A stretch of DNA of 39,102 nucleotides, from positions 1 to 39,102 of the forward strand of contig JAOACF010000008.1 in NCBI GenBank assembly GCA_026417995.1, in the 5' to 3' direction. The DNA is from Negativicutes bacterium (GTDB lineage: Bacteria; Bacillota; Negativicutes; Sporomusales; JAOACF01). The position numbers were made by a program, and so were the translations under genes. The notes under the pieces were generated by a model. The model made no database searches. It had not been told where the DNA came from and saw nothing but the letters and a program-made list of their open reading frames with translations. This document shows positions 3,785 through 39,011 of this stretch, in pieces (position 1 is the stretch's first letter; each line of letters opens with the position of its first letter).

Positions 3785-5221
3785 CTATATAATCGCATTA
3801 AGTGTCCACCCAGGCGACCCCGCTTCACCTGGGTATGACCCTGTTGACGCTGCTCCGCCACTAACATTTTTAGTACCTGTATCGGTAATATTACTTGCAA
3901 AGAAGGCGATACAGCCGCCGCCTCCACCGCCTCCGCCGCCAGTATACGTAACATGCCCGGGTGCCCCGCCTTGCTGTCCAGAGCAGTCAATACTTCCAGT
4001 AAAAATTATTGTTTTCGCAGCGATTAGAACCCCCGCTCCGCCATCCCCCCCTTTACCAGCGGTTGGATTACCTTGAACATCATTGTATCCACAACCCCCA
4101 GCAGAACCATAAAAGATTGGGCTTTCCATCAATGCACGTCTAATGGCGGAAGCACTAAGAGATCCAGTGGTAGCAAGCACGGGTAAGTTCATGTAGTTTA
4201 TTTGTGGTGTAGGTATCGGCGGTTCATACCCTATTTCACGAGTATATCCAGGATCTAAGAATAATGAGTGACCCAAAGACGATACGGTAGCACTGTTGGT
4301 TGTACCCAGCCTACCATCATAACAATACATAAAAGATGCATAACTGTGCGGGGATGCAATTACAGAAGGCCCAGGAAGCATAGTCAGTCCAGGATTTGTG
4401 CTCGATGTTCTGCCGTTTCCTCTACCACCGCATCCACATCCATATCCGTGCATTGCCTTCTTTTTTGAATAATAAAGAGTTATTGAGTTATTTATATCAG
4501 TTGCGTAAGATATACCATTGTTAACTCTACCCACAATACTCCCCGCTATTGTAACTGTCCCTGTTGCTCTAATTATTAAGCATCCAATATTGGGGTCAAC
4601 CGTTAATGTATGTCCAGCATTAAGTGTAAAATCTGTATAAAAATGTTCTCCACCAAGTGTTAAGTTGCCTGTGCTATTAAACGGCCCTTCACATCCATCA
4701 CCGAGGTATTTCCAGCGGGGAGGGACGTTGAAAGCATCAGCAGATATAATACCATTTGCATCAACCGTTATACCTGCCCCGATAATTACGCCGCCCAGCG
4801 TAGTCGTCGTTGCCGGAGCCAACCCCGCCCCCGCAGGCATGCATAGTCTTTTTGCCGACGTGGCACGCCCGATGAAAACCTTTGTTGGCGTAGTTCCTAT
4901 TGTTCCGTTCGACTGGCAATAATAAAGGGTGTTTGCGGCGATTGTGTCATCCGTAAACACCCCAGCGATCCTGACCTGACCAAGTGTGCCATTGGCATAC
5001 TCACAGATGCCAATTACGTCCGTTGAGCCTAAAGCAACTGTCCCGTTGCATAATTCCCAACGATTGTTTGCAGTATTCCACTTGACGACCTTACCTCGGG
5101 ACACCCCTGAGGCAATAGGAGCGCTATCATCAATAAGCTTACAAGCTTCGTCATTGGCAAACAGTTGAGCGACTATTGCCGCTCCCGTGTCGTCGTTTAA
5201 TGGCGTAGTTGTCTTAAACAT
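3785..5221 (-). CDS. Tail fiber / Gly-rich receptor-binding adhesin
   Basis: 478 aa; downstream of J; repeated Gly-rich stretches near the C-terminus; RBS AGGAGGGG. Confidence 0.75.
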   Translation of the reverse strand: MFKTTTPLNDDTGAAIVAQLFANDEACKLIDDSAPIASGVSRGKVVKWNTANNRWELCNGTVALGSTDVIGICEYANGTLGQVRIAGVFTDDTIAANTLYYCQSNGTIGTTPTKVFIGRATSAKRLCMPAGAGLAPATTTTLGGVIIGAGITVDANGIISADAFNVPPRWKYLGDGCEGPFNSTGNLTLGGEHFYTDFTLNAGHTLTVDPNIGCLIIRATGTVTIAGSIVGRVNNGISYATDINNSITLYYSKKKAMHGYGCGCGGRGNGRTSSTNPGLTMLPGPSVIASPHSYASFMYCYDGRLGTTNSATVSSLGHSLFLDPGYTREIGYEPPIPTPQINYMNLPVLATTGSLSASAIRRALMESPIFYGSAGGCGYNDVQGNPTAGKGGDGGAGVLIAAKTIIFTGSIDCSGQQGGAPGHVTYTGGGGGGGGGCIAFFASNITDTGTKNVSGGAASTGSYPGEAGSPGWTLNAII

Positions 5222-5233
5222 ATAACCCCTCCT

Positions 5234-5265
5234 GTTTCAATTCACGCGCCCGCACGGGGTGCGAC
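5234..5265 (-). CRISPR. Solitary type I-C-like CRISPR repeat unit (no array)
   Basis: Minus strand GTCGCACCCCGTGCGGGCGCGTGAATTGAAAC, 32 nt; type I-C length, stem-loop and ATTGAAAC 3' end; no second copy seen in the window. Confidence 0.85.
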
Positions 5266-8200
5266 TAAAATCCGATCGCAACGATATCAGTAATGCCGGA
5301 AACTTCTGTTGATCCATTAAATAGTTGGACTTTAAATCCTGCATTTGTTTCAAGTGTTTTCTGCGGAGTATACGCATTGTTTGATGGCGTAACCACAATC
5401 GCGGGCTTAAAAATAAATGGCGGATTAAACGTGATATCAACTCCGCCCACCGGTACCGCAACATTTTCAATCTTCAATGTTTGCGTTTTAGCAGACACCA
5501 CGATTTTAACATCTCTAAGCATCCCGCAGCGATTGACCCCACACACTGTGAAACGTATTTTGAAATACCGCAGACTGATTAACCCGCTCGTCAAGAGTTT
5601 CCAATCGCTCCAGTCAGTGCCGTTAACTGACGTCTGGATTTCGTACAAGCTCGGCGCGTCAGGCGTAACAAACCATGTTTCCTCTGGCGCGATCAAAACC
5701 TGCGCAACTTTGCCGATGTCGATAACGTCTCCAGTTATGGTATAGGTGCCAACAGTCGGGCTCAATAGCCGAGTGCTCTGTAATGTCGACCACGGCATGG
5801 TCATTATTGCCGTATAAGTCAAAGCCGTTTTCTGTACTGTAAATGTTCCAATAGCGGCGTAATCTCCGGTAATTGTCCGATTGCCATCGTCATAACTGTA
5901 ATACTCTAAAACCTTCTCCTTTTCTGGCATTGTGTCAATTGTAATGACATCGCTAATCGGATTTGCGGAATAGCCATAGTGGTTATAAGCAGCAGCCCAA
6001 TAACGATGAGTACCTTTATAGGCCGGCGCGGTTGCTTCATCATTTCCGGCAGCGCCCCGGCTGACCAATTGCGCACTTTCCCAACTATCGCCTCGCCGAA
6101 ATTCGATGCCGATAATATTGGTATTTGCATAGTCCGCGCTCGCCAGCTTGAGAGAGAACAACACCTGCGCCGCCAGCACTGACACAGCAAAATATGTAAT
6201 GTCAGGCGGCGGCGTTCCTATTCCAGAGCCAGGATCGACAAAAACATAATTCATTGTCGTTGCCGTTCCTGCGTTGCCAAAGATGTCGAGGGCAACCACG
6301 GAAACCTCATAGAGCTTAAACAAAATTACCGGTATCGAAATACTCGTCTTGTCCGCGCCAACCTCGCCCACTTTCTGGCCGTCGATCAGTATCCGAGCGC
6401 CGTTATACAGCCGCGATGGCGTCCATGTGATGTCTAAAAACAGATCATCGCCACTCACCCTACCAGATACCGCGACATTCGTTACCGCATTAGCCGCGCC
6501 TGAGTAGTTGATGACCGGAATATCCGTAGCTTCGGAGTAGACCTCTGGGATATATTCTAAAGCGGTTAATTTTCGTCGCATGTCGCCGGAACGGGTTAAA
6601 TATAGCAAGCGTAAAGGCTTCGTAACCATATTGACCAAACCGAATGAGTAGATATCGTCTCGTTTCGGCAGCGTTTCAAATGGTTCTTGCATTGTTACTA
6701 TATCTGTTTCTGTGTTTACCGTGACGCCCTTTACCGGCACCTCAAGCAGCCTGTCGTCCTCAAGCCGGATCGCCAGTGCGTAGGCTTTCCCTGGTTCTAG
6801 CAAAACCATCCTGTCTAATCTCACTTCATCAGTTATATGGTCAGTAACAATCCTCTCCACGCTGACTATTCGCCCGCTCTGCCCCCATTCGGGAACATCA
6901 TGCGCGAAGTTCACAACATCGCCTACCTGACACGCCAGCGCGTCAATATCGGCTTCCCAGGAGCAGGTACGAATTAGGTATTTATTTAGCTTCAGACGAT
7001 ATTTCCCGGCCCGATAAGCCTCGCTAACAGTTGTTACCCCCGGCAGAGTTATTTGCGCAACAACAGGGACGGCATCCACGCTATCATAATCATCGCCGTA
7101 TACCGTAAGAACGTCCCGCTGATAGCCCTTATCTTTATTAAAAAACGTGATTTCTATGGCATTTGCCCGGTCTTTAAGAGGCAGAAATTCCTCTTGGAAC
7201 GTGTTTGGCACGATATTTCCCATCGTAAACAGCATGACCGGATCGCTCGGCTTGTCGCAAACGGCTGAAAACCTGGTGCCTTTCAAAACAATCTTCCCGC
7301 GTCCGCAAATTTCAATATTCCTAAGGGCGCCCCACAAGTCAGAAATGCTATCGAGGATGATATTCACTGTGCAACGCTTTTCGCCTGTTTGTGCATCAAT
7401 CACATAGTCGCAGAATTCCGCCCAATCGACGAAGGCTTGATAATCCATTCTGCTGGCCGGAACACCAAACACGGTAAATTCGTCCAGATCGGTTTGAACG
7501 TTTTTAAGCAGCTTGCATCTGTGGATCAAATCGTAGCAGGCCCACGCCGGGTTAGTGGCGGGCTTTAAAACATACTGCTGTGTGTTCGCATCCCAAACAT
7601 TGACATAGTTTCGTTTCTGCAGCCAGGTGATGTTCGGGATGCTGCCGGACAGTTGGTCAGTCGCTAATGCCTTGATACCGACGAGTACTTTACCCGGACG
7701 GGAAAAATCGTCATAAATAATGTGGCTAAGCTCCGACCAGTACACTCTTGTTGCGTAGTGTTGAGGGTCTTCGCCAGACTTGTAAGTGCATTGCAAGCGA
7801 ACTTCGTAGCGGCCAATGGGAAGATTATCAATACGAAACGCTTTGCGGTAAACTCCGGAATTTTTGGCTGCCGTAATTTCCCATTCAGCCCAGTCTTGCC
7901 ATGCTGTTCCTTCTTTACGGTATTGAGCTAAGATTTTTACTGTAGCATTTTTCTTGCGGCCTTTATCATCGATGAAATATAAGCCATATGGAAATTCCAA
8001 TGTAACCCTAAGTCCCTGGCCGCCGTTGCCGTCGGTGATGCGCGTCACCCATGAGCCGTCAACTAAAAGTTCGGTACCAATATCCTGATTAGCAAATGTA
8101 TCGTTGAAATTCTGAATTACCGTTTGGTCATTTGTTCCCAACCGAGTTTCAACGATTATATCTTTATAATTGCTGACAGGCTGGTCATTAATGAGTATGT

Positions 8201-8825
8201 CGCTAATTTCATCTACGGGGCCCTCGCCGCCGCATAACAGTAATTTTAAATACTGCTTATCGCCATCGGACTCGATATCGTAAGCGACTATTTGACCGGC
8301 AGTACGAACCGTGCCATATGTAATTGCAACGGGGTTTCCCTGTCCTTGCATGGACTGAATTTTCCCCCACGAATATGTGGGGCTGTCCTGTTGGTTTTCG
8401 ATTTTGGGCGGCGGAAACAGGTGATTGATAACCATACCGCCAAGCACCATAGTCGCTGTGGCCGCTAGCCTTCCAGCCATCGTCAGCTTCGCGCCGGCAG
8501 CGCCAAATTTGGCTCCAGATACAACATTGCCTACACCTGCAGACACGAACATTAAAGCTACACTTGCCAATATTTGCAATATGTTTTTCTTCCCGCCGGA
8601 TTTCCCGACTACCGGACACACGCCCACGAAATCCCCTGGCAAGGGGGTGATTGTCGTATACTCTGCCGGCTCAATTGTCCGCCCGTTATGGCATACAACC
8701 AAGTCCTCTAACTTCATTCCCAAATCCGAAACATACGAAAAAAGCGGCTGCCCCGTACAGGCAGTAGGCTTAATTTCCCGTTGGTGAGGTTTAAACGGAT
8801 TTCTTAGTATCGCTAAATTTATCAT
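5265..8825 (-). CDS. Tail tip / host specificity protein, lambda gpJ-like
   Basis: 1186 aa; gpJ-like N-terminus (NPTYSWGKIQSMQGQGNPVAITYG-type region), Fn3-like C-terminal region; follows K/L/M-like genes. Confidence 0.9.
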   Translation of the reverse strand: MINLAILRNPFKPHQREIKPTACTGQPLFSYVSDLGMKLEDLVVCHNGRTIEPAEYTTITPLPGDFVGVCPVVGKSGGKKNILQILASVALMFVSAGVGNVVSGAKFGAAGAKLTMAGRLAATATMVLGGMVINHLFPPPKIENQQDSPTYSWGKIQSMQGQGNPVAITYGTVRTAGQIVAYDIESDGDKQYLKLLLCGGEGPVDEISDILINDQPVSNYKDIIVETRLGTNDQTVIQNFNDTFANQDIGTELLVDGSWVTRITDGNGGQGLRVTLEFPYGLYFIDDKGRKKNATVKILAQYRKEGTAWQDWAEWEITAAKNSGVYRKAFRIDNLPIGRYEVRLQCTYKSGEDPQHYATRVYWSELSHIIYDDFSRPGKVLVGIKALATDQLSGSIPNITWLQKRNYVNVWDANTQQYVLKPATNPAWACYDLIHRCKLLKNVQTDLDEFTVFGVPASRMDYQAFVDWAEFCDYVIDAQTGEKRCTVNIILDSISDLWGALRNIEICGRGKIVLKGTRFSAVCDKPSDPVMLFTMGNIVPNTFQEEFLPLKDRANAIEITFFNKDKGYQRDVLTVYGDDYDSVDAVPVVAQITLPGVTTVSEAYRAGKYRLKLNKYLIRTCSWEADIDALACQVGDVVNFAHDVPEWGQSGRIVSVERIVTDHITDEVRLDRMVLLEPGKAYALAIRLEDDRLLEVPVKGVTVNTETDIVTMQEPFETLPKRDDIYSFGLVNMVTKPLRLLYLTRSGDMRRKLTALEYIPEVYSEATDIPVINYSGAANAVTNVAVSGRVSGDDLFLDITWTPSRLYNGARILIDGQKVGEVGADKTSISIPVILFKLYEVSVVALDIFGNAGTATTMNYVFVDPGSGIGTPPPDITYFAVSVLAAQVLFSLKLASADYANTNIIGIEFRRGDSWESAQLVSRGAAGNDEATAPAYKGTHRYWAAAYNHYGYSANPISDVITIDTMPEKEKVLEYYSYDDGNRTITGDYAAIGTFTVQKTALTYTAIMTMPWSTLQSTRLLSPTVGTYTITGDVIDIGKVAQVLIAPEETWFVTPDAPSLYEIQTSVNGTDWSDWKLLTSGLISLRYFKIRFTVCGVNRCGMLRDVKIVVSAKTQTLKIENVAVPVGGVDITFNPPFIFKPAIVVTPSNNAYTPQKTLETNAGFKVQLFNGSTEVSGITDIVAIGF

Positions 8826-38642: not shown

Positions 38643-39011
38643 CTATTTCTTCAAAGGTCTACCAATACCAGACGACAATAAGTACGCTGTCAACTGGTTT
38701 AAACTTACGTTTTCTTCTTTGGCCTTGCGTACCAGATCACGATGCAAAGATTTTGGCACCCTAACAACAAATTTGCCACTGTAATCTTCTTCACTGTTAA
38801 CCGGCTCAGGTATGGTAATGCCTTCTTCCAGGGCGCATTCAATCCATGCCCGCATGGCATCGTTAATCATGCGCACAGTATCTTCCAGTGTTTCACCCTG
38901 AGTAATACAGCCAGGCAGTTCAGGCACTACACCAACAAAGCCGCCCTCCTCTGCTGGAATTATTTCAAAGCGATAAGGGAGAGACAGGTAGTACTCAAGC
39001 TCTTTTTTCAT
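38643..39011 (-). CDS. HicB-family antitoxin with C-terminal DNA-binding region
   Basis: YRFEIIPAEEGGFVGVVPELPGCITQGETLEDTVRMINDAMRAWIECALEEG; FVVRVPKSLHRDLVRKAKEENVSLNQLTAYLLSSG. Confidence 0.85.
   Translation of the reverse strand: MKKELEYYLSLPYRFEIIPAEEGGFVGVVPELPGCITQGETLEDTVRMINDAMRAWIECALEEGITIPEPVNSEEDYSGKFVVRVPKSLHRDLVRKAKEENVSLNQLTAYLLSSGIGRPLKK

Follow-up and report, generated by a model that had tools for sequence, protein, structure and literature searches.

A solitary type I-C CRISPR repeat between gpJ and a putative tail fibre gene in a phage contig, a candidate RNA anti-CRISPR

The window analyzed in this work, by which we mean the whole stretch of 39,102 nucleotides, is a 39-kb phage contig with genes for a terminase, a portal, a head protease, a tape measure protein, J, an endolysin, a helicase, and an SSB, as well as repressor-like genes. 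Its right end (38643-39011) carries a HicB-like antitoxin, matched in both Pfam and PHROG. The contig was binned in a 2.65-Mb, 89%-complete bin, and is best explained as a siphophage of the temperate type that was binned together with a host of Negativicutes type. On the minus strand, direct reading of the sequence and matches to array repeats place a solitary type I-C CRISPR repeat of 32 nt at 5234..5265, which reads GTCGCACCCCGTGCGGGCGCGTGAATTGAAAC from 5265 to 5234. It follows gpJ, the central tail fibre gene (5265..8825, minus strand, 1186 aa; PHROG_31, E=7.5e-151; Pfam FNIII-A_GpJ and Phage-tail_3), with which it has one base in common, base 1 of the repeat being the final G of the TAG stop codon of gpJ. 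The 12 nt from the repeat to the next ATG (5222..5233, minus strand) read AGGAGGGGTTAT and contain a strong Shine-Dalgarno (SD) sequence. The ATG opens a 478-aa ORF (3785..5221, minus strand) with distant partial similarity to sequence near the J of a relative (L169). Since this ORF has no family match in PHROG or Pfam, its designation as a putative tail fibre or receptor-binding protein derives from its position after J. A first-pass annotation of this DNA had given the sequence, strand, and coordinates of the repeat exactly as we re-read them, had placed it from the last G of the gpJ stop codon to 12 nt before the ATG, and had described it as lying in the sense orientation of the late genes, which direct reading and the ORFs confirm. 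The gap between the two genes measures 43 nt and not 44 bp as it had stated, and of the two tail genes that it named, gpJ is backed by PHROG and Pfam whereas the tail fibre is assigned by place.

Judged by its full-length match to array repeats, the 32-nt element is a CRISPR repeat of type I-C. It is 31/32 identical to GTCGCACCCCGTGCGGGTGCGTGAATTGAAAC, the array repeat of Peptoclostridium acidaminophilum plasmid EAL2_808p, which occurs there in 68 copies adjoining cas7c. The phage copy departs from it only at position 18, where C in place of T disrupts one stem pair; A6 and the TGAATTGAAAC tag are as in Peptoclostridium. The phage repeat is also 30/32 identical to array repeats of a Negativicutes MAG, Pelotomaculum, Desulfosporosinus, and others, and 29/32 identical to those of two order-mates, i.e., the Negativicutes themselves hold I-C arrays with repeats at 29-30/32 identity. 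The database comparison proposed in the first-pass annotation thus returns type I-C matches at 29-31/32, and the I-C repeat form that it had given is right. It had listed two departures from that form. The A-C mismatch in the stem is real, whereas the TGAATTGAAAC tag is a normal variant, because it is present in a real I-C array, that of Peptoclostridium. Among 383 genomes of the class, no TGAATTGAAAC I-C repeat of the searched pattern (with C18 fixed) was found except in this window, no named phage record has a full-length match to the repeat, and Rfam has no match in the window.

GC-rich hairpins are common between genes, and one may ask whether the resemblance arose by chance or belongs to an ordinary hairpin or terminator. 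We consider this hardly credible in view of the full-length match at 30-31/32, which has blastn E-values against the window of 2.9e-9 for the Negativicutes/Pelotomaculum array repeat and 1.2e-11 for a viral mini-array repeat, and an E-value of 3e-6 against 7.3 Gb of plasmids. In shuffled sequences there was no match to the repeat at up to 3 mismatches, and with these E-values we rejected a chance match. We rejected a terminator as well, since no T-run follows the hairpin.

The repeat occurs as a single copy. No other 32-mer in the window comes closer to it than 13 mismatches, in agreement with the earlier statement that it has no partner there, and the 2.65-Mb bin holds no second I-C repeat within 3 mismatches of the degenerate pattern. 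Hence, we rejected a hidden array, and neither the definition of a CRISPR array or mini-array (two or more repeats with spacers) nor that of an ordinary array remnant with further repeats, an outcome that the first-pass annotation had named as refuting its reading, describes what lies in the window and the bin. We then used SRUFinder-type criteria for solitary repeat units (SRUs), taken from PMC10651486. The identity to known repeats (30/32 and 31/32) exceeds the thresholds of ≥90% identity over ≥90% of the repeat, and the blastn-short scores, 48.1 bits for the array repeat and 56.0 bits for the viral mini-array repeat, exceed that of ≥41.1. The 100-bp flanks contain no full or partial repeat (local identity of 47% and 50%), and the element is intergenic, between the gpJ stop and the next ATG with the last stop-codon base in common. 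The repeat passes those published SRU criteria that were applied.

In type I-C systems, Cas5 (Cas5d/Cas5c) recognizes the hairpin together with the single-stranded 3' part of the repeat and cleaves at the stem base, so that a tag of 11 nt remains (PMC3890593). The phage repeat has this layout, with a stem of positions 3-9 and 15-21 and an 11-nt 3' tag, TGAATTGAAAC, and in its stem A6 faces C18. At the same stem position, 45 of the 48 other viral repeats have a Watson-Crick pair, 2 have a G-U pair, and 1 is mismatched. The predicted free energy is -9.0 kcal/mol, against -12.8 kcal/mol for the Peptoclostridium repeat, and the predicted probability of the hairpin in its native context is 0.003-0.27, depending on the flank, against a median near 0.85. 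As the two bases might still be held together by an A+.C wobble, the mismatch weakens, and does not exclude, recognition by Cas5c. We also considered that the repeat might sequester the SD sequence. In one of the folds, CCCC pairs with the SD region. This fold does not outdo shuffled sequences (z=+1.53), and most SD bases are open in longer context, and we rejected this idea. The same A6.C18 mismatch is found in the Syntrophaceae MAG UBA6252, in a solitary I-C repeat one base away from the phage repeat (L021, 5517-5548), which is followed downstream by an asparagine-synthase-like ORF and whose surroundings are not obviously those of a phage.

Published candidates for RNA anti-CRISPRs (Racr) mostly, though not always, come with a cognate type I-C system in the host. 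We found no Cas1, no Cas5d, and no I-C array in the 89%-complete bin, and Cas5d is present in half of 28 genomes of the order. The true host of the phage may not be the bin. A protospacer-like site in the helicase gene of the phage (30183..30215, minus strand) matches a spacer in the I-C array of an order-mate (G013) at 25/33 positions, with the first 17 nt perfect and TTC immediately 5'. The score of this match alone is modest, because reversed spacers reach 32.2 bits compared with its 36.2 bits. It gains weight from the PAM and the coding pattern, the residues IQQSMRAMR being unchanged despite the spacer mismatches. A second spacer of the same array matches a J-bearing prophage region of another one (G011; 30/34, TTC). 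These spacer matches are suggestive of I-C systems of the order meeting relatives of this phage. In the array of an Ignavibacteriae MAG (L025, 5820-5853), the first spacer is made up of 14 nt of other sequence and 20 nt that read as the reverse complement of the array's repeat type; its source would be an array or else a repeat-bearing element, perhaps the solitary repeat of a phage.

We located the J ends and the sequence that follows them in 14 order-mate prophage regions and in 22 IMG/VR loci that a J alignment had retrieved. The repeat is absent from all of these ~36 related J junctions, a count that is approximate, given the near-duplicates among the loci and a few fused or split J genes. 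The junctions are short and often have an SD sequence. Conservation in related phages, the lack of which the first-pass annotation had named among the findings that would refute its reading, is thus missing, and we rejected the repeat as a feature of the phage family. It looks like a recent addition in this phage lineage. In IMG/VR, neither J alone nor the tail-fibre protein led to a close relative of this phage.

Solitary I-C repeats are found on other viral contigs. In IMG/VR, a single scan with a degenerate pattern yielded 74 stretches bearing I-C repeats; once arrays and duplicates were removed, at least 48 non-redundant solitary ones were left. An SD sequence and a start codon follow within 60 nt in the sense direction in 11/48, compared with 8.65% of random positions (p=0.002). 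On the antisense side, 7/48 are SD-adjacent (sense 11 vs antisense 7, p=0.48), and the orientation bias is therefore weak. Imperfect stems occur in 2/11 of the SD-adjacent repeats and in 1/37 of the other solitary repeats (p=0.13, not significant). A few repeats lie in tight gaps like that of our phage: between minor-head and tail-fibre-like genes (L105), after a tail-fibre gene (L104), by a terminase (L098), and between unknown genes (L111 and L063). The one in L105 (6177-6265, IMG/VR 3300027796_000087) is immediately followed by a terminator-like hairpin with a T-run and then by the tail-fibre-like gene, and it looks like a repeat situated at the 3' end of a structural-gene transcript. On other IMG/VR contigs an I-C repeat recurs in two or three identical copies, for the most part separated by hundreds to thousands of bases: 3300031673_000079 (9272, 11329, 11926), 3300020171_000101 (141, 22832, 22895), 3300020195_000003 (12625, 13203), and 3300032156_001598 (5351+, 18939-). 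Several of these copies are directly upstream of genes, and multi-copy decoys or repeat-flanked gene cassettes are possible. A similar spacing is seen in a 3.4-kb contig of a Clostridia MAG (L045, JAQVYD010000131.1), where solitary I-C repeats stand at three dispersed places on the minus strand (offsets 0, 615, 1192), ~600 bp from one to the next.

The closest known system is RacrIC1 from a prophage of Bifidobacterium pseudocatenulatum, which lies 11 nt downstream of acrIC5, shares a bicistronic RNA with it, and acts as an inhibitor of a type I-C system (PMC10651486). As in our phage, it is a single I-C repeat in a phage context without cas genes, placed shortly after the preceding stop codon and on the same transcript, the latter being a prediction for the repeat studied here. 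It differs in that it follows acrIC5 and has demonstrated inhibition, whereas the repeat studied here lies between gpJ and a putative tail fibre gene, is a candidate from sequence, has no visible promoter, and has one broken stem pair. The Peptoclostridium repeat, which shares 31 of its 32 bases including the tag, differs by its place in an array with spacers and adjoining cas7c, and by its intact A6-T18 pair. A phage mini-array in IMG/VR (L088) has virus-borne repeats of the TGAATTGAAAC type, the first of which is 31/32 identical to ours, but it has several repeats with spacers and our phage has one.

The explanation that we find best, and to which we give about an even chance, is that a captured I-C repeat acts as a low-grade Racr-type decoy in late mRNA. 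The phage would have acquired a lone type I-C repeat that came to lie between gpJ and the tail gene that follows. Presumably co-transcribed with J, the repeat would be part of the late J/tail-fibre mRNA and, in hosts whose type I-C system matches it, would serve as an RNA mimic. Cas5c would bind it there, perhaps cutting the mRNA, and Cas5c, together with Cas7 spreading along the attached mRNA, would be drawn away from real crRNAs, to the benefit of the phage. In favor of this explanation are the near-identity to the 68-copy array by cas7c, the agreement with the SRU criteria, the tight placement between two ORFs in the sense direction, the viral solitary repeats, some of them in tight structural-gene gaps, the spacer match in the helicase gene, the I-C arrays with similar repeats in Negativicutes, and the published precedent of RacrIC1. 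Against it are the loss of a stem pair, the low predicted hairpin probability, the absence from related J junctions, the lack of Cas1, Cas5d, and I-C arrays among our findings in the bin, and the small orientation preference of viral I-C repeats. In addition, we found no promoter-like match within 250 nt upstream of the repeat and no acr gene beside it, both of which count against a working Racr. The main functional worry is the late placement, since virion genes are expected to be expressed from their operon only at a late stage of infection, too late to save the incoming genome. The first-pass annotation had called the repeat a Racr candidate, and as a genuine solitary I-C repeat in the sense direction it has what defines a published one; as a working Racr it is set back by the missing promoter and acr neighbor, the weakened hairpin, the late operon, and the bin in which no Cas5 or Cas1 was found. 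A Racr function is plausible, and the repeat remains a candidate.

A drifting relic ranks a close second to this decoy. It is possible, if somewhat less probable, that a single I-C repeat was recently captured, has no function, and is now losing its structure, one stem pair having gone already; its place between a stop codon and an SD site would explain why it is tolerated. A match of 31/32 is what a recent capture would leave, and the one transition that sets it apart from a real array and breaks a stem pair, the ~36 J junctions that lack the repeat, and the absence of a promoter and of a detected I-C system in the bin all fit, as does the occurrence of solitary I-C repeats away from clear phage genes (the Syntrophaceae repeat above). 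On the other hand, viral contigs commonly carry solitary I-C repeats, such units can be functional (PMC10651486), and the 32-nt unit is whole except for one base.

Two further readings give the repeat another role. It could be a Cas5c-dependent switch of processing or translation, where a cut at the stem base parts J from the tail-fibre mRNA and Cas5c held on the 11-nt tag blocks tail-fibre translation in I-C hosts. The predicted cut at the hairpin base (PMC3890593) falls directly before the SD, and the SD-adjacent sense placement of viral repeats exceeds that of random positions. However, any intergenic element would be expected to show such an SD enrichment, the antisense side comes near to it, the repeat is not conserved in relatives, and such regulation would be fragile, many hosts being without the regulating enzyme; we regard this switch as improbable. 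Still less probable, to the point of being very doubtful, is a one-repeat crRNA-like guide, in which the repeat and the tail-fibre start as "spacer" would act against competing phages with the same gene. The order is correct, with the repeat preceding a sequence of spacer length, and because the repeat precedes this "spacer" the phage's own locus lacks a PAM. Phage mini-arrays against rivals are known and provide a precedent (PMC11656645). However, a second repeat is absent, and no close relatives of the tail-fibre gene were found. The downstream sequence, which the first-pass annotation had also viewed as a "spacer", has no match in IMG/VR, the phage collection, or the rest of the bin.

Solitary repeats are already established as anti-CRISPR RNAs, and what is unusual here is the placement between two virion genes; the candidates tested so far were chosen for a nearby promoter, and several adjoin acr genes. 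This raises the questions of whether a repeat embedded in an mRNA can act, at what stage of infection, and whether cutting by Cas5c alters late gene expression. A more general idea, which we put forward as a long shot, is that phages place single, slightly destabilized I-C repeats directly before the SD sequences of structural genes, so that each late mRNA would also serve as a Cas5c sponge or Cas5c would gate the translation of tail fibres. If such a late-operon class is real, the assembly of virions would be coupled to the presence of type I-C immunity in the host.
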